From NCBI GenBank assembly GCA_944390145.1, contig CALXOY010000086.1, positions 41,865 to 105,864 on the forward strand: a DNA stretch of 64,000 bases, written 5' to 3'. Source of the stretch: an uncultured Duodenibacillus sp. (lineage in GTDB: Bacteria; Pseudomonadota; Gammaproteobacteria; Burkholderiales; Burkholderiaceae_F). Under the pieces are notes generated by a model. The model did not search any database. It was not told where the DNA came from and saw only the letters and a list, made by a program, of their open reading frames with translations. The translations under genes and the position numbers were made by a program. Shown one piece after another: positions 816 through 27,246 of the stretch (positions are counted from its first letter, which is position 1; each line of letters begins with the position of its first letter).

Positions 816-2273
816 ATGCAACCGACAACTTTCAGCACTGTGGCCGAGCTCTCCCGCGCCCTGGCCGCACGCCAGGTGAGCGCCGTTGAACTTGCGCAGG
901 ACTATCTTGCAAAGATCGAGGCTCACAAGGAGCTCAACTGTTTCCTGGATGTCCGCCCCGACGTTACGCTCGAGCAGGCCCGCGAGGCCGACAAGCGCAT
1001 TGCCGAGGGGACGGCCACCCGGCTTACCGGCATTCCCATCGCCCACAAGGATATTTTCGTCACCCGCCGCTGGGCCTCCACGGCGGCCAGCCGCATGCTT
1101 GAGGGCTACATGAGCCCCTTTGACGCCGCCGTCGTCCGCAAGCTTGATCAGGCGGGCATGGTGACGCTGGGCAAGCTCAACTGCGATGAGTTCGCCATGG
1201 GCTCGGCCAATGAAAATTCCGCCTACGGCAAGGTTCTCAACCCTTGGGACGCCAACGCTGTTCCGGGCGGCAGCTCCGGCGGCTCCTCGGCCTGCGTTGC
1301 GGCAGGACTTGCGCCGATTGCCACGGCAACCGATACGGGCGGCTCGATTCGTGAACCGGCGGCTTTCTGCGGCGTCACGGGCTTGAAGCCCACGTACGGC
1401 CGTCCGAGCCGTCTGGGCATGATTGCCTTTGCGTCGTCATTGGACACGGCCGGCCTCATGGCGCACACCGCCGAAGACATCGCCTGGGTGCTGGGCGACA
1501 TGGTGGGCTTTGAACCCTGGGACTCCACGAGCGAAAACAAGCCTGCCGAGGACTTCACCCGTGATTTGAACAAGGGCGTCAAGGGGCTGAAAATCGGTGT
1601 GCCGCGCGCCTGGTTCGCCGACAAGCTCGACGGCGAATGCGCCGCGGCAATCGAATCGGTGATTGACTCCTACCGCAGCCAGGGCGCCGAAATCGTCGAC
1701 ATCGAACTGCCGACGGCCGACCTCGGCGTTCCCGTTTACTACGTTGTCGCCTGCGCCGAAGCCAGCTCAAACCTCTCGCGCTTTGACGGCGTGCGCTACG
1801 GCTACCGCGCCAAGGAGTACGAGGGCATCCAGGACATGATCAAGAGAAGCCGCGACGAAGGCTTTGGCGACGAACCCAAGCGCCGCATTCTGATCGGCAC
1901 CTATGTGCTGTCGCACGGCTACTACGACGCCTACTACATCAAGGCGCAGAAGGTGCGCCGCCTGATTGCCCGGGAGTTTGACCGTGCCTTTGAAAAGGTG
2001 GACGCCATCATCAGTCCGGTGACGACCTCCACGGCATACGACTTCGGCGCCAAGAGCGATCCGGTGTCGGCCTATCTGTGCGACCTCTACACCGTGCCGA
2101 TGTCGCTGGCAGGTCTTCCCTGCATGAGCATGCCTTGCGGCATTCACTCCAACGGCCGTCCGATCGGCGTACAGATCACCTGCGCGCGTTTTAACGAGGC
2201 CAAGATGCTCGGCATTGCGCATGCCTGGCAGCAGGCCACCGACTGGCATTTGCGTCACCCCGAAGGTTTTTAG
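816..2273 (+). CDS. gatA: Asp/Glu-tRNA amidotransferase subunit A
   Basis: 485 aa, amidase-signature family. It hydrolyses glutamine and delivers ammonia to GatB for transamidation of mischarged tRNA. The Ser-cisSer-Lys triad is visible: Lys78 in AHKDIF, Ser153/154 in the glycine-serine run GGSSGGSS, and Ser177 in [10 protein letters not shown]. The start is the ATG at 816, with AAGGA about 11 nt upstream; a TTG at 792 in the same frame overlaps the gatC stop but lacks a ribosome site. Co-transcribed with gatC and gatB (21-nt gap to gatB). Confidence 0.96.
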
Positions 2274-2294
2274 TCGAGGAGCTCGAGAAACATC

Positions 2295-3746
2295 ATGCAA
2301 TGGGAAGTTGTTATCGGACTGGAGACGCATGTCCAGCTCTCCACTGATTCGAAGATTTTTTCGGGCGCCAGCACGCACTTCGGAGCCGAGCCCAACACAC
2401 AGGCCTGCTACATCGACCTGGCGCTGCCGGGGGCGCTTCCGGTGCTAAACCGCGGCGCCGTGGAACGCGGCGCAAAGTTCGGTTTTGCCATCGGAGCCGA
2501 AGTGGCCAAGCGTTCCGTGTTTGACCGCAAGAATTACTTTTACCCCGATCTGCCCAAGGGCTATCAGATCAGCCAGTTCGAGCATCCGATCGTCAAGGGC
2601 GGCAAGGTGACCTTCCGCGTCGAACCCAAAGAGGGCGAACCGTATGTGAAGACCATCAATCTCACGCGCGCCCACCTTGAAGAGGACGCCGGAAAGAGCA
2701 ATCACGGCGTTGTGGCCTACAAGTCCGGCATGGACTTAAACCGTGCGGGCACCCCGCTGCTGGAGATTGTGACCGAACCGGAATTGAGAAGTTCCGCTGA
2801 AGCCGTCGGCTACGCCAAGGCGCTGCACGCGTTGGTGGTCTGGCTTGGCATTTCCCGCGGCAACATGCAGGAGGGCAATTTCCGCTGCGACGCCAACGTC
2901 TCCGTGCGCCCGATGGGCAGCACGGAATTCGGCACGCGCTGCGAAATCAAAAACCTCAACTCCTTCAAGTTCCTGCAGGAAGCTATCGACTACGAAGTCG
3001 CCCGTCAGATCGAACTCATTGAAAGCGGCGGAAAGGTGGTGCAGGCCACGCGACTGTACGACCCCGACACGGGCGAAACCCGGGAAATGCGCACCAAGGA
3101 AGACTCCATGGACTACCGCTACTTCCCGGATCCGGATCTGCTGCCCTGCGTGCTCACCGACGAGGACATGGAACGGATCCGCGCTGAAATGCCGGAGCTG
3201 CCGGACGCAATGCGTGAGCGCTTTGTTCGCGAGATGGGCTTGAGCGAATACGACGCAGCTGTGCTCACCTCGAGCAAGGACGTGGCCGACTACTTCTGCG
3301 CTTTGTCCGCAGTGGCGCCTGACAAGAAGATCGCCGCCAACTGGGTGATGGGCGAAGTGGCGGCAAACGTCAACGCCTGCGAGGGCATGACGTACGCGCA
3401 GGCCCCCGTCACGGCGGCAAAGCTTGCCGACATCCTCAAGCGTCTTGCTGACGGCACGATCAACGGCAAGGGCGCCAAGCGCATCTTCTCGCTGATCTGG
3501 GAAGGAGCGCAGGAGACGGTTGACGCGCTCATCGAGAAGGAGGGCTTGAAGCAGATTTCCGACAGCTCGGCCATCGAAGCGGTGATTGACGAGGTGCTGG
3601 CTAACAACGACAAGATGGTGCAAGAGTACAAGGCCGGCAAGCAGAAGGCCTTCAATGCACTCATCGGTCAGTGCATGAAGGCCACCCGCGGCAAGGCCAA
3701 CCCCAAACAGGTCAACGAAATCCTCTCCAAGAAACTCAACGGATGA
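2295..3746 (+). CDS. gatB: Asp/Glu-tRNA amidotransferase subunit B
   Basis: 483 aa, full length for GatB. It starts [15 protein letters not shown], the typical GatB opening, preceded by GAGGAG. The N-terminal catalytic domain phosphorylates the mischarged tRNA and transfers ammonia (motifs [19 protein letters not shown], cradle residues around 80-105), and the C-terminal helical and tail (YqeY-like) domain from about 330 to the end grips the tRNA. Its stop overlaps the start of the next gene by 4 nt (ATGA), so the DUF805 gene is translationally coupled. Confidence 0.96.
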
Positions 3747-4224: not shown

Positions 4225-4569
4225 CTACGGAACCTTCGGGAAGTCGAACTTGTGGCACTGGGCGCAGTAGTTGACCGTCGGTTCATGCATCATGTGGCAG
4301 AGCGTGCAGTCGCCGTTGTGCGGGGCGGCGTGGGGGTTGGGCTTCAGTTTTTCCGTCTTCTTGGCAACGGCGGCCTTCGGATGGCACTTGATGCAGGTGT
4401 TCTCATCCGGGTAGACGGGGTTGTTCATATCCGGCCCGTGGCACATCTGGCAGGAAACGCCGCGGGCGACGTGGCGGTCCGAGCCGAACTTCTCCGCTGC
4501 GCCGGCCGCGCCGCAGGCGATGAAGGATGCAAGGCCAAGCGAAATCAAAAGCGTCTTTGCAAAAGACAT
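4225..4569 (-). CDS. Periplasmic tetraheme cytochrome c (flavocytochrome heme partner)
   Basis: 114 aa with a Sec signal peptide (residues 1 to about 24, ending GAAGAA). Four CxxCH heme-binding motifs follow in a short mature chain: CQMCH, CIKCH, CTLCH and CAQCH. Size and spacing match the N-terminal heme domain of soluble flavocytochrome c fumarate reductases and the stand-alone small tetraheme cytochromes. An AGGAG ribosome site precedes the ATG at 4569. It lies 133 nt downstream of, and co-directional with, a flavin reductase that has no heme domain of its own, so it probably feeds that enzyme with electrons in the periplasm. Confidence 0.88.
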   Translation of the reverse strand: MSFAKTLLISLGLASFIACGAAGAAEKFGSDRHVARGVSCQMCHGPDMNNPVYPDENTCIKCHPKAAVAKKTEKLKPNPHAAPHNGDCTLCHMMHEPTVNYCAQCHKFDFPKVP

Positions 4570-4702
4570 TGGAAACTCCTGATTGTCTGGTTCTTTGAGT
4601 ATCGGGGCACACGCCTCCCCTGTCCGGCTTCTTGCAAAGCGGACCTGGGAAGCATGAATGGGAAAATGAGGGCTGGACGCCAGCCCTCGGGATGCCGCCG
4701 GA

Positions 4703-6217
4703 TTACTTGCCGGCAGCCGTACGAGCGGCCGTGCGGCCGAAGATGATGCAGTCGGCCACGGCCACGGTGCCCAGACGCACCATGCCGTGCACGCCGCCGG
4801 TGATTTCGCCGGCAGCGTAAAGGCCGGGGATGACCTCGCCGCGGGCGTTTTCAACCTGGGCCTTCTCGTTGATCACCAGACCGCCCATGCAGTGGTGCAC
4901 GCGCGGCCACAGGCGGCAGACATAGAAGGGGCCGTCGCCGTTGGGCACGGCATCCTTGAACATCATGCAGTTGAAGTCCGGATCCTTCTGCGCCTTGATG
5001 TAGCTGTCGAACTTCTCGTTGGTCTTCTTGAGCTCGTCGTACGGGACCTTGTAGGTGTCGGCAAGTTCCTTGAGGTTGGCGACCTTCTTCACGACGCCGC
5101 TCTTGAGAGCGCGTTCGAACATTTCCGGCGTCATGTTCTTGCCGATGATCTTGTTCTGGGCGTTCTTTTCGCCGATATAGATCAGGGTCGGATGGCCGAT
5201 GGCAACGATGGCGTCGGCGCGCACCTTGCGGTTGCCGGTTTCCTGAATGAAGCGCTTGCCGGTGGCCGGATCAACCATCAGGCCGTAGCCGACGGCAGGT
5301 TCCACGAAAAGCGGAGCCATGCCGAAGCCGGTTTCCTCGGGGCTGGTCCAGGGGCCAAGCTGAATCCAGTCCATCTGGATCGTGTTGGCGCCGATCATCT
5401 GGGCGGCCTGCAGGGCTTCGCCGGTGGCGCCCGGGTGGTTGGTGGAGCCGAACTTCTCGTTTAAGCGCGGATCGTGCTCCATGCGCATCTTGACGTTCTG
5501 GCTGAAGCCGCCGGCGGCAAGCAGCACGCCCTTGGTGGCGCGGTAGTAGGCAACCTTGCCGGACTTTTCACGGCCGAAGCGATAGTTTTCGCGGACCTTG
5601 ACGCCGAGCACGGCGCCCTTGTCGTCGACCACGAGATCGTCAACGATCGTGCGCAGCTGAACGGGAATGCCGTATTCCTGGCACTTCTTGTACATCGGGT
5701 TGATGAAGCCGGAGCCGGAGTTGTTCGTCACGGCATGGCTGCGGGGAACGGAGTGTCCGCCGTGGAAGGTCACGGCCTTGAACTTCACGCCGACCTTCTT
5801 GAGCCATTCGTAGTTTTCGACGCAGTTGTCGGCGATGTGACGGGCCAGTTCCGGATGAGCCAGACCACCGCCGGCTTTCACGATGTCTTTAAAGAGCAGG
5901 TCGGGGGAGTCCTTGATGCCGGCGGCCTTTTGCATATCGGTGCCGGCTGCGGCCACGGCGCCGCCGTTGATGATGGAGTTGCCGCCGTAGGTGGGCATCT
6001 TGTCGATCACAAGCACGTTCTTGATGCCCTGCTCGTGGGCTTCAATGGCTGCGCCCAGACCGGCAAAACCCGTGCCGACGATCAGAAAGTCCACCGTCTT
6101 GTTCCACTTTTCGGGGGCTTTCACCGTCTGTGCAAGAACGGGGGCGGATACAACACCGGCGGCGCCGGCGGCGGCCAGAGAGCCGAGGAAGCTGCGGCGG
6201 GAAAGTTGACTGGTCAC
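4703..6217 (-). CDS. Tat-exported FAD-dependent reductase, fumarate reductase/flavocytochrome c family
   Basis: 504 aa from a GTG at 6217, with AAGGAG 8 nt upstream. The N-terminus SRRSFLGSLAAAG with a cut near VLAQT is a Tat signal, consistent with export of a folded flavoprotein. The FAD dinucleotide-binding motif VGTGFAGLGAAIEA follows at about 47-60. C-terminal family motifs VHHCMGGL and HGMVRLG carry the catalytic His and Arg of fumarate-type reductases. There is no FMN-binding domain and no heme domain. The position that is His in fumarate reductases and Tyr in urocanate reductase reads as Gly here (IQLGPW), so the substrate is probably another unsaturated organic acid; it cannot be named from sequence. 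Operon with the tetraheme cytochrome. Confidence 0.85.
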   Translation of the reverse strand: MTSQLSRRSFLGSLAAAGAAGVVSAPVLAQTVKAPEKWNKTVDFLIVGTGFAGLGAAIEAHEQGIKNVLVIDKMPTYGGNSIINGGAVAAAGTDMQKAAGIKDSPDLLFKDIVKAGGGLAHPELARHIADNCVENYEWLKKVGVKFKAVTFHGGHSVPRSHAVTNNSGSGFINPMYKKCQEYGIPVQLRTIVDDLVVDDKGAVLGVKVRENYRFGREKSGKVAYYRATKGVLLAAGGFSQNVKMRMEHDPRLNEKFGSTNHPGATGEALQAAQMIGANTIQMDWIQLGPWTSPEETGFGMAPLFVEPAVGYGLMVDPATGKRFIQETGNRKVRADAIVAIGHPTLIYIGEKNAQNKIIGKNMTPEMFERALKSGVVKKVANLKELADTYKVPYDELKKTNEKFDSYIKAQKDPDFNCMMFKDAVPNGDGPFYVCRLWPRVHHCMGGLVINEKAQVENARGEVIPGLYAAGEITGGVHGMVRLGTVAVADCIIFGRTAARTAAGK

Positions 6218-6517: not shown

Positions 6518-7723
6518 TTAGAAGCGGTGCACGATGCCGGCGGTGAATTCGTAGCCGCTCGGGGTTGCTTCACGCGTGGAGGACTCAACCTTTTCCTGGC
6601 TGTAGCCGGTCATGGCAAAGAAGCTCGTGCGCTTGGACATCGGGTAGTCGTAGCCCAGAGCTACGAACCAGCGCTTGAATTCCACATCGTCCTGGTTGTC
6701 CATGTCGCGATAGGCCACCTGGCCCTTCAGGGTGCCGCCGGCAACCGGGTAGTGTGCGCCCAGGCTGGCGCCCCAGCCGTCGACGTAGCCGTAGCCATTG
6801 CCATCGTTCCGGTTGTCGGGGTCGACGGCGGCGTTAGAGGAGGCCCACATCACGCCTTCCTGTGCAACGCCGGCGCGGGCGGTCGTGTTGAGGTACTGAT
6901 CCTTGAAGTACTGGCCAAAGGCAAGCAGCTTGAAGCCGTTGCTGAAGGCGTAGTTGCCGCCGAGGGTGACCGTGAGGCCGTCGTCGACTTCCTTGCTGTT
7001 GTTGTAGGTCGAAAAATTCCTCTGACTGTCAACGTCGCCGTAGAAGGTCATGTCGGCCACCATGATGGCCTCCAGACCGCCGTTCTGATAGCGCAGAGCC
7101 AGGGAGCCGTAGCGGTCGGCCGAGCCTTCGCTTTCTTCACCCTCGTAGGCATCCGTGCCGTCCTTCTTGAGTGAGTACATGGCATAGAACGTCAGACCGG
7201 CAAAGGTCGGGGAGACGTAACTGATGGCATTGTCGACGCGGGTCCAGTCGGAAGCCGTGACCGAGCCGGAGCCAAAGGCCACGGTGTAGTTGGCAAAGAG
7301 CGGATCGATGGCGCGGAACAGACCGTCGGCGCCGAGCACGCTGCCAAAGAGCGGCATGCGGCCGAAGGAGAACTTGCCGTAACTGGTGTGCAGGTCGAGG
7401 TGGGCTTCGCGGTCGAAAATGCGGCCGGTGTCGCGGGAGGCGCCCAGCGTACCGGTGTCAGAGCGGAAGCCGGATTCCAGCACGAAGCCGATCTTCAGGT
7501 CGGAGCTGATTTCCTCCATGCCGCGCAGACCCCAGCGGGAGCCGAATTCCTTGCCTTCTTCCATGGAGAAGGTGTTTTCGGTCTCAGAAAAAGGGGTGTC
7601 GCCGTCGCTGCTCACAAAGGTCAGAGCAGGATTGATCAGGCCGTACAGTTCAACATTGGCTGCGAAGGCGGAGCCGGCGGCAAAGGCACCGAACACCGAC
7701 ATCGCGATCAAGGATTTTTTCAT
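6518..7723 (-). CDS. General outer-membrane porin, 16-strand trimeric type
   Basis: 401 aa with a classical signal peptide (MKKSLIAMSVFGAFAAGSAFA, mature start ANVELYG), then alternating beta-strand sequence and a C-terminal Phe (GIVHRF), the recognition signature for outer-membrane insertion by BamA. Length, the NVELYG start and a loop-3-like segment match the OmpC/Omp32-type porins (Porin_4 family) of Burkholderiales. The ATG at 7723 follows GGAG at good spacing; the frame is open slightly upstream but the signal peptide fixes the start. It is expressed alone and ends at a strong terminator. It should allow diffusion of small, probably anionic, solutes into the periplasm. Confidence 0.92.
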   Translation of the reverse strand: MKKSLIAMSVFGAFAAGSAFAANVELYGLINPALTFVSSDGDTPFSETENTFSMEEGKEFGSRWGLRGMEEISSDLKIGFVLESGFRSDTGTLGASRDTGRIFDREAHLDLHTSYGKFSFGRMPLFGSVLGADGLFRAIDPLFANYTVAFGSGSVTASDWTRVDNAISYVSPTFAGLTFYAMYSLKKDGTDAYEGEESEGSADRYGSLALRYQNGGLEAIMVADMTFYGDVDSQRNFSTYNNSKEVDDGLTVTLGGNYAFSNGFKLLAFGQYFKDQYLNTTARAGVAQEGVMWASSNAAVDPDNRNDGNGYGYVDGWGASLGAHYPVAGGTLKGQVAYRDMDNQDDVEFKRWFVALGYDYPMSKRTSFFAMTGYSQEKVESSTREATPSGYEFTAGIVHRF

Positions 7724-7872
7724 TGTTTGTTTCTCCTTTGGTCGGTGAGTAAAACCCATGGTGCCGGAGTATATGCATCAAAGAGGCGCTAGAAAAGAAC
7801 CTCTGTAAGGGAGAAAAGTAAGTGTAAACCCTGAGTTTTAGGGAATATGTTTTAGATTTGCCCTCGCAAACC

Positions 7873-8712
7873 TCAGAGAGGTGCTGTGTCCGAGATGATT
7901 TTCTTCAGGGGGTCCCGGTAGAGGTCGCTTGAGCGTTCCTCAATGTTTCTGATCCATCGATGAACCGGCAGCAGGCAGGAAAGCTGGATGAGCGCCGTGT
8001 CGTTTTGCAGCACGAGCATGCCGGAGGATTTGAGGTTTCCCAGGGCGCGCTCCAGGGCTGCGGCCGAACAGTTGACGACAAACTGCAGCGCCTCCCCGCG
8101 CAGAGGGGCCGGCATGCGGATCCAGGAGACGCCGTCGATCACTTCCTCGCGGCCGAAGGCCACCGTCCAGGTGATGAAGTAGGAAAGAAGGCGCTCCTCG
8201 ACGCCGAGGATGGAATGGACGCCGAAGCCCAGTCGATCCGACAAATTCATCAGCTCAAACTCCTTTGCGATCAGCATCAGCAGTTCGGGATCCTTTTCGC
8301 ACAGGCTGTAGAGCAGGGATTGGGGCACCATTACGACGACGCTCGGCACCAGCGCGAAGTAGCTGCCGATGCAGGGGCGGTGTGAGAAAAAATTGAGGTT
8401 GCCGCAGGCCAGCCGTCCGGGGATGGAAAAGGCAATGGCCGGACGCGGAACGCTCAGTACCGAGCCGAAGCAGCGCGCGGTGATGCCGGATTTGACGAGA
8501 ACCAGCTTGTTAACCTTGTCGTTGACGGCGCCGAGCACCGGATCCTTGGGGGCAAGTTCTTTTTCCACGCCCCAGCGTTCAATCAAGGAGCGGATTTTGG
8601 AGTGCAGGGGAGGAGCAAGCCACGGATAGGTGGGAATGTCGTACGAGTCGTCGCTGCTGCGGTTTCGGAAAATTTCGATTTCTTTGAGCCAGTTGGCAGA
8701 AGGCGGACGCAT
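7873..8712 (-). CDS. Crp/Fnr-family transcriptional regulator, divergent
   Basis: 279 aa. An N-terminal cyclic-nucleotide-binding-like beta-roll (about 65-150, with VVVMVPQSLLYSL at the end of the roll) is followed by a long dimerisation helix and a C-terminal winged helix (about 205-255: LRGEALQFVVNCSAAALERALGN). The second HTH helix has SAAALERA where Crp has SRETVGRI, so the usual base-contacting Arg and Glu are absent and its DNA target cannot be predicted from Crp or FNR. It lacks the N-terminal Cys cluster of FNR. It is divergent from the urocanate-reductase-like gene, its most likely target. Confidence 0.7.
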   Translation of the reverse strand: MRPPSANWLKEIEIFRNRSSDDSYDIPTYPWLAPPLHSKIRSLIERWGVEKELAPKDPVLGAVNDKVNKLVLVKSGITARCFGSVLSVPRPAIAFSIPGRLACGNLNFFSHRPCIGSYFALVPSVVVMVPQSLLYSLCEKDPELLMLIAKEFELMNLSDRLGFGVHSILGVEERLLSYFITWTVAFGREEVIDGVSWIRMPAPLRGEALQFVVNCSAAALERALGNLKSSGMLVLQNDTALIQLSCLLPVHRWIRNIEERSSDLYRDPLKKIISDTAPL

Positions 8713-9147
8713 TCTTTTGTTCCTGTTGAAATCCCAAAAAACAACGCGGGGAAACGGCAGATGCCGTTCACATCTTGTTGAAATTTTTAATTCCGTAGGT
8801 TGTCATAAAACCGGCGGATTCTCAAGACGGGAAAACACACAGACCTATACGGATTCCTGAGGCGCGTGCGCGCAATGGGCGACGCATAACCTCTGCAAGC
8901 GTTGTGATTTCACGCGTTTTGCCGCGTCTTTTTTCTGGATTCCGGACTGTCCTTTGCGCATTCGAGAGATGCTGTGTCTGCGGTGCGCAGAGGAAATTTC
9001 CTACAATGCTTGCAGCTGAAATGGCGCCGGCACATGATTGCGGCGCTGTTTCAACACGAAGCATCGATTGCAAGCCCGGATGGGGCAGGCAGAAGGGATT
9101 TCTTGAGCCTCCGGCGTTTGCAACAGAGAACATTGAGGAGAGAAAAA
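8713..9147. promoter_or_regulatory. 435-bp divergent control region of the regulator and urdA-like gene
   Basis: No gene is seen here. A TACAAT at 9002-9007 could be the -10 of the flavoprotein gene (the -35 is weak), giving a leader of about 135 nt. GTGATTTCAC (8904-8913) is an inverted repeat that could be an operator. TGTTGAAAT occurs twice as a direct repeat (8724-8732 and 8776-8784, 52 bp apart), near the regulator start. These are candidates only. Confidence 0.35.
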
Positions 9148-10905
9148 ATGCATTTGACCCGCGCATTAGTGGCCGGTCTGGTTTGCTCGGTTTTTGCCGC
9201 TGCGGCTAGCGCTGCGCCGGTGATCACGCAGGGCACCGGCGTCGGTAAACATGGCGACATCACCGTTTCCGTGACGTTTGACCAGGGAAAAATCAAGGAC
9301 ATCAAGGTTGTCAAGCAGCAGGAAAACCAGGTGCTGGCAGCCAAGGTCTTTACGGATCTCAAGCAGCAGGTGATTGACACCAATTCCGTGCAGCTCGATG
9401 TGATTTCCGGCGCGACCTTCTCGTCGAAGGGCTTTTTGGATGCTGTTGCCGATGCCGCCAAGAAGGCGGGCGTCACGCTGGGCAAGGCCGACAAGAAGGC
9501 CATCAAGAAGGTGGTCAAGGCCATCCCGAAGAACTCAACCTATGACGTTGTGGTGGTCGGCGCGGGCGGCGCAGGTTTTTCGGCCGCCATTGAAGCTAAA
9601 AATGCCGGCGCCAATGTCGTGCTGCTCGAAAAGATGCCCGCTGTCGGCGGCAACTCCCTGAGTTCGGGCGCTGAAATGAATGCCGCCCGCAATTGGGTCC
9701 AGCCGAAGCTCGGCATCACGGACGACTCTCCGGAACTGCACGCCCAGGATACGTACAAGGGCGGCGACATGAAGGGCGACATGAAGGTCATCCGCGTGAT
9801 GACCAACAACGCGCTTGACGCTGCAAAGTGGTGCCGCGACTATCTGGGCGTTCGCTTTGAAGACGACAACCTCTTTTTCTTCGGCGGACACTCCCGCAAG
9901 CGCGCGCTCATTCCCTATGGTCACACCGGCACGGAATTCATCACCAAGTTCCAGGCCAAGGCCGATGAGCTCGGCATCCCCATCATCACCAACATGAAGG
10001 CCGAGGAACTCATCAAGGATAAGAGCGGCCGCGTGGTCGGCGTCAAGGCCACCATGAACGGGGACAGCTACACGTTCAACGCCAAGGGCGGCGTGGTGCT
10101 TGCCACCGGCGGCTTCGGCGCCAATCCGGAAATGGTCAAGAAGTACAACCCCAAGATTGATGAACGCTTCAAGACCACGGATGCGCCGGGCACGACCGGC
10201 GAGGCGCTCTACATGGCCGAACGCGCCGGCGCCCAGCTGGTCAACATGCAGTACATCCAGACCTATCCGATCTGCGACCCGATTTCCGGCGTGATTGAGC
10301 TCATTGCCGACGCCCGCTTTGACGGCGCCATCATGCTCAATCAGGAGGGCAAGCGCTTTGTCGAGGAACTCGACCGCCGCGACGTGCTCTCCGAGGCGAT
10401 TCTCAAGCAGACCGGCGGCTACTGCTGGGTGCTGTGGAACGACAAGATCGGCGCAATCTCCAACACGGTGAAGGCGCATCCGACCGAGTATGAAGCCTTC
10501 ACCAAGCAGGGCATCATGAAGACCTGCCCGGATTTGAAGTGCATCGCCGACTTCACCAAGATCCCCTACAAGAGCTTGAAGGGAACGGTGGATCGTGTGA
10601 CCTCGATGGCCGGTCCGGGCAACGACAAAGACTTCCATCACCGCGGCGGCCTGATGGATATGAGCCAGGGCAAGTACTATGTCATCAAGGCCGTGCCGAG
10701 CGTGCATCACACCATGGGCGGCGTGCGCATCAATGAAAAGGCTCAGGCGCTCACCGCCGACGGCAAGGTGATTCCGGGGCTTTGGGCCGCTGGTGAAGTG
10801 ACGGGCGTCACGCATGGCACGAACCGCCTGGGCGGCAATGCCTACGCCGACATCATCGTGTTCGGCCGCATCGCCGGCAAGGAGGCCGCTGCCGCCGCGA
10901 AGTAG
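9148..10905 (+). CDS. urdA: Urocanate reductase-like exported flavoprotein (FMN-bind + FAD)
   Basis: 585 aa with a Sec signal (1 to about 22, ASAAP). An FMN-binding domain (about 24-110) carries DVISGAT, in which Thr90 is the expected site of covalent FMN attachment by ApbE. The FAD domain starts with VVVGAGGAGFSAA (135-147). In the catalytic domain, Tyr373 (IQTYP), Asp388, Arg411, His520 (VHHTMGG) and Arg560 (NRLGGN) occupy the positions I recall for Shewanella UrdA, which reduces urocanate to imidazole propionate; fumarate reductases have His at the Tyr373 position. The ATG at 9148 follows GAGGAGAGAAAAA; the frame is open upstream but lacks a signal peptide there. It stands alone, divergent from a Crp-like regulator. 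Confidence 0.78.
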   Translation: MHLTRALVAGLVCSVFAAAASAAPVITQGTGVGKHGDITVSVTFDQGKIKDIKVVKQQENQVLAAKVFTDLKQQVIDTNSVQLDVISGATFSSKGFLDAVADAAKKAGVTLGKADKKAIKKVVKAIPKNSTYDVVVVGAGGAGFSAAIEAKNAGANVVLLEKMPAVGGNSLSSGAEMNAARNWVQPKLGITDDSPELHAQDTYKGGDMKGDMKVIRVMTNNALDAAKWCRDYLGVRFEDDNLFFFGGHSRKRALIPYGHTGTEFITKFQAKADELGIPIITNMKAEELIKDKSGRVVGVKATMNGDSYTFNAKGGVVLATGGFGANPEMVKKYNPKIDERFKTTDAPGTTGEALYMAERAGAQLVNMQYIQTYPICDPISGVIELIADARFDGAIMLNQEGKRFVEELDRRDVLSEAILKQTGGYCWVLWNDKIGAISNTVKAHPTEYEAFTKQGIMKTCPDLKCIADFTKIPYKSLKGTVDRVTSMAGPGNDKDFHHRGGLMDMSQGKYYVIKAVPSVHHTMGGVRINEKAQALTADGKVIPGLWAAGEVTGVTHGTNRLGGNAYADIIVFGRIAGKEAAAAAK

Positions 10906-26293: not shown

Positions 26294-27246
26294 TGCAGCA
26301 CGTCTCCGGCCTGCATTCCCGTGCTTTGCACGAAGGCTGCGGCGGGCATGGCGGGCTTGCCCGGTCGCTGCAGCTCGGTGCATTGGATCGCTCCTTCGGC
26401 GCAGGCGATGACAAGCTCGCGGCCGGCGCAGAGCACCTCTCCGGGGCGCCCGGTTCCTTCAACGGCCCGGGCAAAACGGATCTTGATCGTCTCGCCCTTG
26501 TATTGCGCCGTTGCAAAGGGGAAGGGATTGAAGGCGCGGATGCGGCGGGCCACAACTTCAGCGGGCTGATGCCAATCGACGGGAGCCTCCGTCTTGAGAA
26601 TCTTTTCGGCATAGGTGACGCCTTCGGCGGGCTGCTCAACCCATTGCAGGGTTTCGGGGTGCGCAAGCGCGCTCACAATGAGTTCGGCGCCCATGGCCGT
26701 CATGCGCTCAAAAAGCGTCGCCGAGGTGTCCTGCGGCGTGATTTCCGTTTCGGACTTGACGATCATCGGACCGGTGTCAAGCCCCGCCTCCATTTTCATC
26801 AATGTGATGCCGGTGACGGCGTCTCCGGCTTCGATGGCGCGCTGCACCGGGGCGGCGCCTCGCCAGCGCGGAAGCAGGGAGCCGTGGATGTTGATGCTCT
26901 TGATGTCGCCCGACTTGCCGATCCCGCGAGCCGCTTCAAGCGCCCGGACGGGCAGAATGAGGCCGTAGGCGGCAACAACCAGAACGTCGATGCCGGCGGA
27001 CTCCAGTGCGCTTAACGCCTCTTCGGCCTGCTGCGACTGCCGTTTGACCGACAGCGTGGAGGGGGTGAGAGTCGGGATGTTGTGCGCCAGTGCGACTTCC
27101 TTGACGGCGCTGGGCTTGAGCTTCATGCCGCGTCCGCTCGGGCGGTCGGGCTGCGTGAGCACGAGACTTACGTCGTGGCCGGCCTGAATCAGTGCAGTCA
27201 AGGCGGCTGCGGCAAAAGGCGGGGTTCCGGCAAAGGCGATGCGCAT
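26290..27246 (-). CDS. fmt: Methionyl-tRNA formyltransferase
   Basis: 318 aa. It formylates initiator Met-tRNA using 10-formyl-THF. The N-terminus MRIAFAGTPPFAAAAL and the catalytic INIHGSLLPRWRGAAPVQ (with Asn and His) plus a downstream Asp in GLDTGP are visible. The ATG at 27246 begins family similarity; the frame is open upstream without homology. First gene of fmt-rsmB-DUF4390-ntrY-ntrX-trkA-trkH. Confidence 0.95.
   Translation of the reverse strand: MRIAFAGTPPFAAAALTALIQAGHDVSLVLTQPDRPSGRGMKLKPSAVKEVALAHNIPTLTPSTLSVKRQSQQAEEALSALESAGIDVLVVAAYGLILPVRALEAARGIGKSGDIKSINIHGSLLPRWRGAAPVQRAIEAGDAVTGITLMKMEAGLDTGPMIVKSETEITPQDTSATLFERMTAMGAELIVSALAHPETLQWVEQPAEGVTYAEKILKTEAPVDWHQPAEVVARRIRAFNPFPFATAQYKGETIKIRFARAVEGTGRPGEVLCAGRELVIACAEGAIQCTELQRPGKPAMPAAAFVQSTGMQAGDVLQ

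Follow-up and report, generated by a model that had tools for sequence, protein, structure and literature searches.

The gut metabolite imidazole propionate (ImP) has been linked to diabetes and impaired glucose tolerance. Predicting its producers requires knowledge of the species that possess a true urocanate reductase (UrdA). In the structure paper on Shewanella UrdA (PMC7921117), Asp388 (or Asn or Gln), Arg411, His520 and Arg560 are assigned roles in binding the imidazole and carboxylate groups and in proton transfer. The D388A, R411A and R560A variants are reported there as inactive, and Tyr373 is described as making no contact with urocanate, its replacement by His (Y373H) conferring only low activity on fumarate, an activity absent from Shewanella UrdA itself.

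Among gut bacteria, a 2026 preprint (PMC13320830) reports that all urdA-encoding strains tested, Parasutterella excrementihominis included, converted urocanate to ImP, that P. excrementihominis converts 13C6-histidine to 13C6-ImP, and that histidine promotes its growth. The preprint ties the histidine-to-ImP conversion to possession of hutH together with urdA, the two being co-located in Burkholderiaceae. A third described system is ergothionase, an enzyme without MIO that yields trimethylamine and thiourocanic acid; according to the same source (PMC13405746), MIO-less enzymes of the HAL/PAL fold act on ergothioneine. Here, we compare a urdA locus of Duodenibacillus, a genus placed in Sutterellaceae, with these systems.

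The reductase gene and its assignment to UrdA

The locus lies in a 64,000-nt stretch of DNA, referred to as the window (G000:C86:41865-105864), from an assembly of 2.09 Mb in 98 contigs that is 88% complete. On the plus strand of the window, a reading frame extending from an ATG at 9148 to a stop at 10905 (9148..10905) encodes a 585-aa protein, predicted to be an exported FMN/FAD urocanate reductase from its identity to the solved structure 6t85, 11 active-site residues and a match to TIGR01813. While a GTG at 8974 is a mechanically possible longer start, we favoured 9148 because it combines a signal peptide with a Shine-Dalgarno-like GAGGAG, read directly in the sequence at 9135..9140. The putative signal peptide (approximately residues 1-23; 9148..9216), already proposed in the initial annotation, is of the Sec type as judged by eye from the translation. 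It is followed by an FMN_bind domain (residues 33-104; 9244..9459; Pfam PF04205, E 4.8e-15), within which the SGAT motif earlier read as a covalent-FMN site indeed places a Thr at position 90 (codon 9415-9417). With this domain and an ApbE gene in the genome, Thr90 is the expected flavinylation site, and the protein thus has the FMN_bind domain with a flavinylatable Thr that UrdA membership requires. The FAD and clamp domains occupy 9544..10839, as delimited by PF00890 and residue mapping, with the FAD_binding_2 match spanning residues 133-564 (E 6.6e-81), and the protein scores 483 bits against the TIGR01813 flavo_cyto_c model, whose cut-off is 285.

The best solved relative of the protein is Shewanella UrdA (6t85; E 7.9e-173, 579 bits), followed by flavocytochrome c3 fumarate reductases (306 bits, E 4.4e-90). 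Across the FAD/clamp module, 263 of 451 residues are identical to 6t85 (58%), a figure that covers the part of Shewanella UrdA present in 6t85, a structure lacking the FMN domain. The 11 residues that PMC7921117 names (E177, F243, Y373, D388, R390, F391, R411, H520, H521, R560 and G563) can all be placed on 6t85 with a single numbering offset. In the resulting alignment, the window protein keeps all 11, ten of them at the identical number: numbering agrees from F243 onward, and E177 of UrdA corresponds to E176. The window protein thus keeps this Glu, although the position is not conserved in the gut UrdAs aligned in the structure paper (PMC7921117). Positions 90, 373, 388, 411, 520 and 560 read T, Y, D, R, H and R, the codons for Tyr373, Asp388 and Arg411 lying at 10264-10266, 10309-10311 and 10378-10380, and those for His520 and Arg560 at 10705-10707 and 10825-10827, all on the plus strand. 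The initial annotation had described the last five of these residues as sharing their numbers with the Shewanella enzyme, which the alignment to 6t85 confirms; it puts Tyr373 and Asp388 in the catalytic columns of UrdA, and the assignment stands. Its further statement that Tyr in place of His is the key switch holds as regards the presence of Tyr373, but not as regards its sufficiency, given the mutants described in PMC7921117 and the existence of paralogues with Tyr at this position.

These paralogues come from the same genome, which contains 28 PF00890 matches: one is urdA, 18 belong to the 17 ORFs that we examined (including one fragment), and nine short ones were left out. The UrdA residue set is carried by none of the 17. 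Column 373 holds His in five and Tyr in three, and the combination of Tyr with Asp388 occurs in none, with the remotest alignments being uncertain. Residue 373 alone was consequently rejected as a UrdA diagnostic, three of 17 paralogues having Tyr there without Asp388. A separate observation concerns a 720-aa flavoprotein encoded at G000:C12:78516-80678, which has Thr in column 90, Tyr in column 373 and Ala in column 388; it is likely a reductase of another acrylate that a rule based on residue 373 would miscall as UrdA.

A midpoint-rooted tree built from 50 sequences places the window protein in a clade of Sutterellaceae proteins to which Shewanella UrdA is sister (support 0.964); the 16 other flavoproteins of its own genome that were included lie outside the UrdA group. 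We also retained 80 loci of 104 matches, chosen by two peptide patterns, one of which includes Tyr373; the presence of Tyr373 in 82 of 82 aligned rows (the window protein and 6t85 included) is therefore partly a product of selection and carries no weight as support. Taken together, the window gene is predicted to encode a genuine urocanate reductase, an ordinary member of the known UrdA family.

Electron supply and the source of urocanate

The genes upstream of urdA lie on the minus strand and form no operon with it. Nearest is a divergent gene for a 279-aa protein (7873..8712) that by eye is a possible Crp/Fnr-type regulator and matched neither Pfam nor NCBIfam models at E 0.001. Next come a porin (6518..7759; Pfam Porin_4, E 8.6e-35), a second, FAD-only flavin reductase with a Tat-like signal (4703..6217; TIGR01813, 464 bits) and a small tetraheme cytochrome c (4225..4569; Cytochrom_c3_2, E 4.5e-13), in whose frame, with an inner Met chosen as the start, four CXXCH motifs and a signal peptide are visible. 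The initial annotation had noted the absence of an adjacent cytochrome; this is true of the immediate neighbours, but not of the wider surroundings, as 4225-6217 on the opposite strand holds the genes for the tetraheme cytochrome and the second flavoprotein. The second flavoprotein was rejected as a further UrdA, having neither Tyr in column 373 nor Asp388. Elsewhere in the genome, a single ApbE match (G000:C14) and a single NapC/NrfH-type cytochrome match (G000:C15) were found. The electron route from NapC to UrdA is established for Shewanella-type respiration.

From these parts a mechanism can be proposed. The enzyme would be exported and act in the periplasm after ApbE has attached FMN to Thr90; electrons from menaquinol would reach this FMN, probably through the NapC/NrfH-type cytochrome, and pass on to FAD, from whose N5 a hydride would be transferred to the presumed substrate urocanate, with Arg411 donating a proton, to give imidazole propionate. 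We hold it very probable that this explanation applies as a whole, i.e. an exported, ApbE-flavinylated and menaquinol-fed UrdA that reduces urocanate made by others to imidazole propionate. The organism would then respire urocanate and release the product, as the initial annotation had suggested. Still, the native substrate could be broader than, or different from, urocanate.

Where the urocanate comes from is a question of lyases. That no hutH adjoins the gene, as stated in the initial annotation, is correct for the window and holds for the rest of the assembly (88% complete) too, where we found no aromatic-amino-acid lyase, with zero matches to PF00221 (HAL/PAL/TAL) and zero to the HutH model TIGR01225. 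Nor did a tblastn search of the window with three lyases reveal a lyase remnant; the one match, of 43 residues (26449-26577, E 0.032), lies away from urdA and was taken as chance. Among the 61 genomes searched, 12 (the window's own included) encode a product at least 72% identical to the window UrdA, these matches being free of internal stops, and PF00221 matches are present in six of the 12 and absent from the other six. The latter comprise three near-complete relatives (G003, 96% complete; G008, 100%; G027, 98%), so that the presence of urdA in genomes lacking a lyase is a real feature of this group. Most likely, then, the window species takes up urocanate made by others, which we regard as plausible. 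Given an assembly completeness of 88%, a lyase could be missing from the assembly; with this caution, we take scavenging as the simplest explanation for the window species. The gene adds a likely Duodenibacillus species to the predicted imidazole propionate producers, one whose urocanate is probably supplied by other organisms.

MIO-less lyases beside urdA in relatives

The wider interest of this UrdA lies in its pairing elsewhere in the clade. In five of the 12 urdA-bearing genomes (G009, G010, G014, G033 and G034), a lyase gene is found 0.1-0.4 kb from urdA, downstream of it in G014 and divergent in the other four. A lyase-family ORF lies near urdA in nine of the 80 retained loci (eight from Sutterellaceae, one from a Brevinema MAG); those of L084 and L094 are partial, and several of the nine loci probably belong to the genomes just named. 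The 15 PF00221 matches of the urdA-bearing genomes, all of which were examined, comprise five A-type, six B-type and four C-type lyases, with the A-type lyases beside urdA located at 10485-12137 in L069, 10778-12493 in L070, 10212-11852 in L074, 10170-11816 in L076 and 9864-11507 in L078. None of these 15 has the Ala-Ser-Gly triad that forms MIO. The triad site reads GDA-D in the A type, GEA-D in the B type and GAN-D (three cases) or GVN-D (one case) in the C type, versus ASGD in 15 of 15 full-length lyases from urdA-free relatives, a control for which three fragments (L057, L058 and L066) were set aside and one match from G043 was left out. In genome-wide searches, DNA coding for G-S-V-G-A-S-G-D, a pattern that Ile-for-Val variants would escape, was absent from 11 of the 12 urdA-bearing genomes; the sole match, found in G034, has no lyase next to it, and two control genomes gave one match each. 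A strong N-terminal hydrophobic stretch is present in 14 of the 15 MIO-less lyases (best 11-residue mean 1.89-2.78, compared with at most 1.55 in eight canonical lyases); the fifteenth, from L194, reaches 1.48, its start being uncertain.

The HutH model TIGR01225 gave matches in six of the 12 urdA-bearing genomes and reached its cut-off in none. The A-type lyase of L069, the one that was searched against solved structures, matches ergothionase (6s7j) best, at E 3.1e-83; tyrosine aminomutase (3.4e-45) and HAL (3.1e-43) follow. The four lyases scanned against NCBIfam score highest on histidine ammonia-lyase models, at values far below the cut-offs, and no ergothionase model is among the matches listed. 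In a midpoint-rooted tree, 12 of the 15 MIO-less lyases (five A, six B and one C), together with those of L102 and L147, lie on the ergothionase side, apart from four canonical lyases (support 0.99-1.0). As read from these features, the neighbour of urdA in the relatives is not a classical HutH: it is predicted to be an exported, MIO-less lyase. Among the open-access titles and abstract openings listed on urdA or imidazole propionate in Sutterellaceae, or on MIO-less lyases, none describes a lyase next to urdA that is exported or lacks MIO. Two further loci merit mention. In a water-deer Sutterella MAG (L094, 6068-7342), the A-type lyase beside urdA consists of two partial ORFs, which may stem either from gene decay or from faulty assembly. 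The Brevinema MAG (L147) provides a lyase-reductase pair from a different phylum: a MIO-less lyase (192-1817) stands directly upstream of a UrdA-like protein (1873-3621) whose columns 388 and 176 hold Asn and Gly, respectively.

The pairing of lyase and reductase extends beyond UrdA. While A-type lyases pair with UrdA, an FAD-only flavin reductase adjoins the B-type lyase in all six B-type loci (L191, L193, L195, L196, L198 and L083), each of which also has a tetraheme cytochrome frame, and a reductase and a cytochrome accompany the C-type lyase in two of three loci (L192 and L197), neither being next to the lyase in L194. The second flavoprotein of the window (4703-6217) was considered as an orphaned partner of a B-type lyase and rejected: it is 41-45% identical to the six B partners, and has closer orthologues in relatives (67-84% identical). 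That A, B and mostly C lyases recurrently pair with a reductase of their own speaks strongly for the lyase as the source of the reductase's substrate. One may thus picture the UrdA of gut Sutterellaceae as one of several second halves of periplasmic cassettes, in which an exported lyase devoid of MIO produces an acrylate for respiration by a dedicated flavin reductase. The lyase subfamilies A, B and C would imply several substrates; the lyases would act on trimethylated betaines (ergothioneine, hercynine and others) with release of trimethylamine, or, in view of the P. excrementihominis results, deaminate free histidine without MIO; and the window species would have kept the reductase only, scavenging its substrate. 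We consider this broader proposal evenly balanced between right and wrong. The trimethylammonium group of ergothioneine is the better leaving group. Should the lyases act on ergothioneine or hercynine, one cassette would turn dietary compounds into trimethylamine plus (thio)imidazole propionate; should they act on histidine, they would be MIO-free histidine lyases, and such deamination without MIO would be new enzymology.

P. excrementihominis, the closest tested relative, bears on this choice. The UrdA of strain YIT 11859 (L103 and L078) is 71% identical to the window protein and has the same 11 residues, and the PF00221 matches of its genome (99% complete) are one A-type, one B-type and one C-type lyase, all of them MIO-less. 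The hutH of the preprint is, judging by its co-location with urdA, probably this A-type lyase, so that PMC13320830 appears to count as hutH a lyase unlike HutH; a word search of the preprint's main text returned no occurrence of periplasm, signal peptide, ergothion, MIO or knockout. In P. excrementihominis, either one of these three lyases deaminates histidine without MIO, or there is another route, or the tested strain differs, or the cassettes use betaines such as ergothioneine.

Alternative readings and relation to known systems

The lyases raise the possibility that the reductase serves mainly thiourocanate or another imidazole acrylate, supplied from a betaine such as ergothioneine or hercynine by an exported MIO-less lyase. 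The adjacent lyase genes without the MIO triad in five of 12 urdA-bearing genomes, the ergothionase match of the L069 lyase and the formation of thiourocanic acid and trimethylamine by MIO-free ergothionase (PMC13405746) all speak for it. However, the window protein matches, in 11 of 11 residues, an enzyme proven on urocanate, P. excrementihominis, which has the lyase-urdA pair, is reported to make ImP from both histidine and urocanate (PMC13320830), and the window organism's assembly contains no such lyase, and we consider this reading unlikely.

The preferred assignment, a urocanate reductase that supports respiration, also has to be weighed against two readings that concern function more generally. 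An enzyme reducing urocanate for redox balance only, without net energy gain, or one silent in the gut, would fit with the window urdA standing outside any operon with respiratory partners; orthologues at least 72% identical and free of internal stops in 12 of 61 genomes, together with the histidine-promoted growth of P. excrementihominis (PMC13320830), argue against this reading and make it distinctly improbable. Most improbable of all is a flavocytochrome c-type fumarate reductase, despite the common fold family and the flavocytochrome c3 match noted above: column 373 of the protein holds Tyr instead of His, a heme motif (CXXCH) is lacking, five of the 17 other flavoproteins of its genome do have His in this column, and Shewanella UrdA is without fumarate activity (PMC7921117).

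Compared with the known systems, the urocanate reductase of the window is closest to UrdA of Shewanella oneidensis MR-1 (PDB 6t85-6t88), with which it shares the FMN-FAD architecture, a signal peptide and the 11 residues, in a different organism and genomic setting. With the flavocytochrome c3 fumarate reductases (1qjd, 1d4d), it has in common the FAD and clamp domains and the carboxylate-binding and proton-donor residues, but these enzymes have His where the window protein has Tyr373. Flavocytochrome c3 carries an N-terminal tetraheme domain in place of FMN. The lyases beside urdA in the relatives resemble the ergothionase of Treponema denticola (6s7j, 6s7q), likewise a MIO-less protein of the HAL/PAL fold, the triad site reading SIGEG-DIT in ergothionase and SIGDA-DIT in these lyases as against GSVGASGDL; they differ from ergothionase in their predicted signal peptides and in grouping as a separate clade. 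Finally, P. excrementihominis YIT 11859 has an exported MIO-less lyase 0.1 kb downstream of urdA, whereas the assembly of the window organism has the reductase without one.
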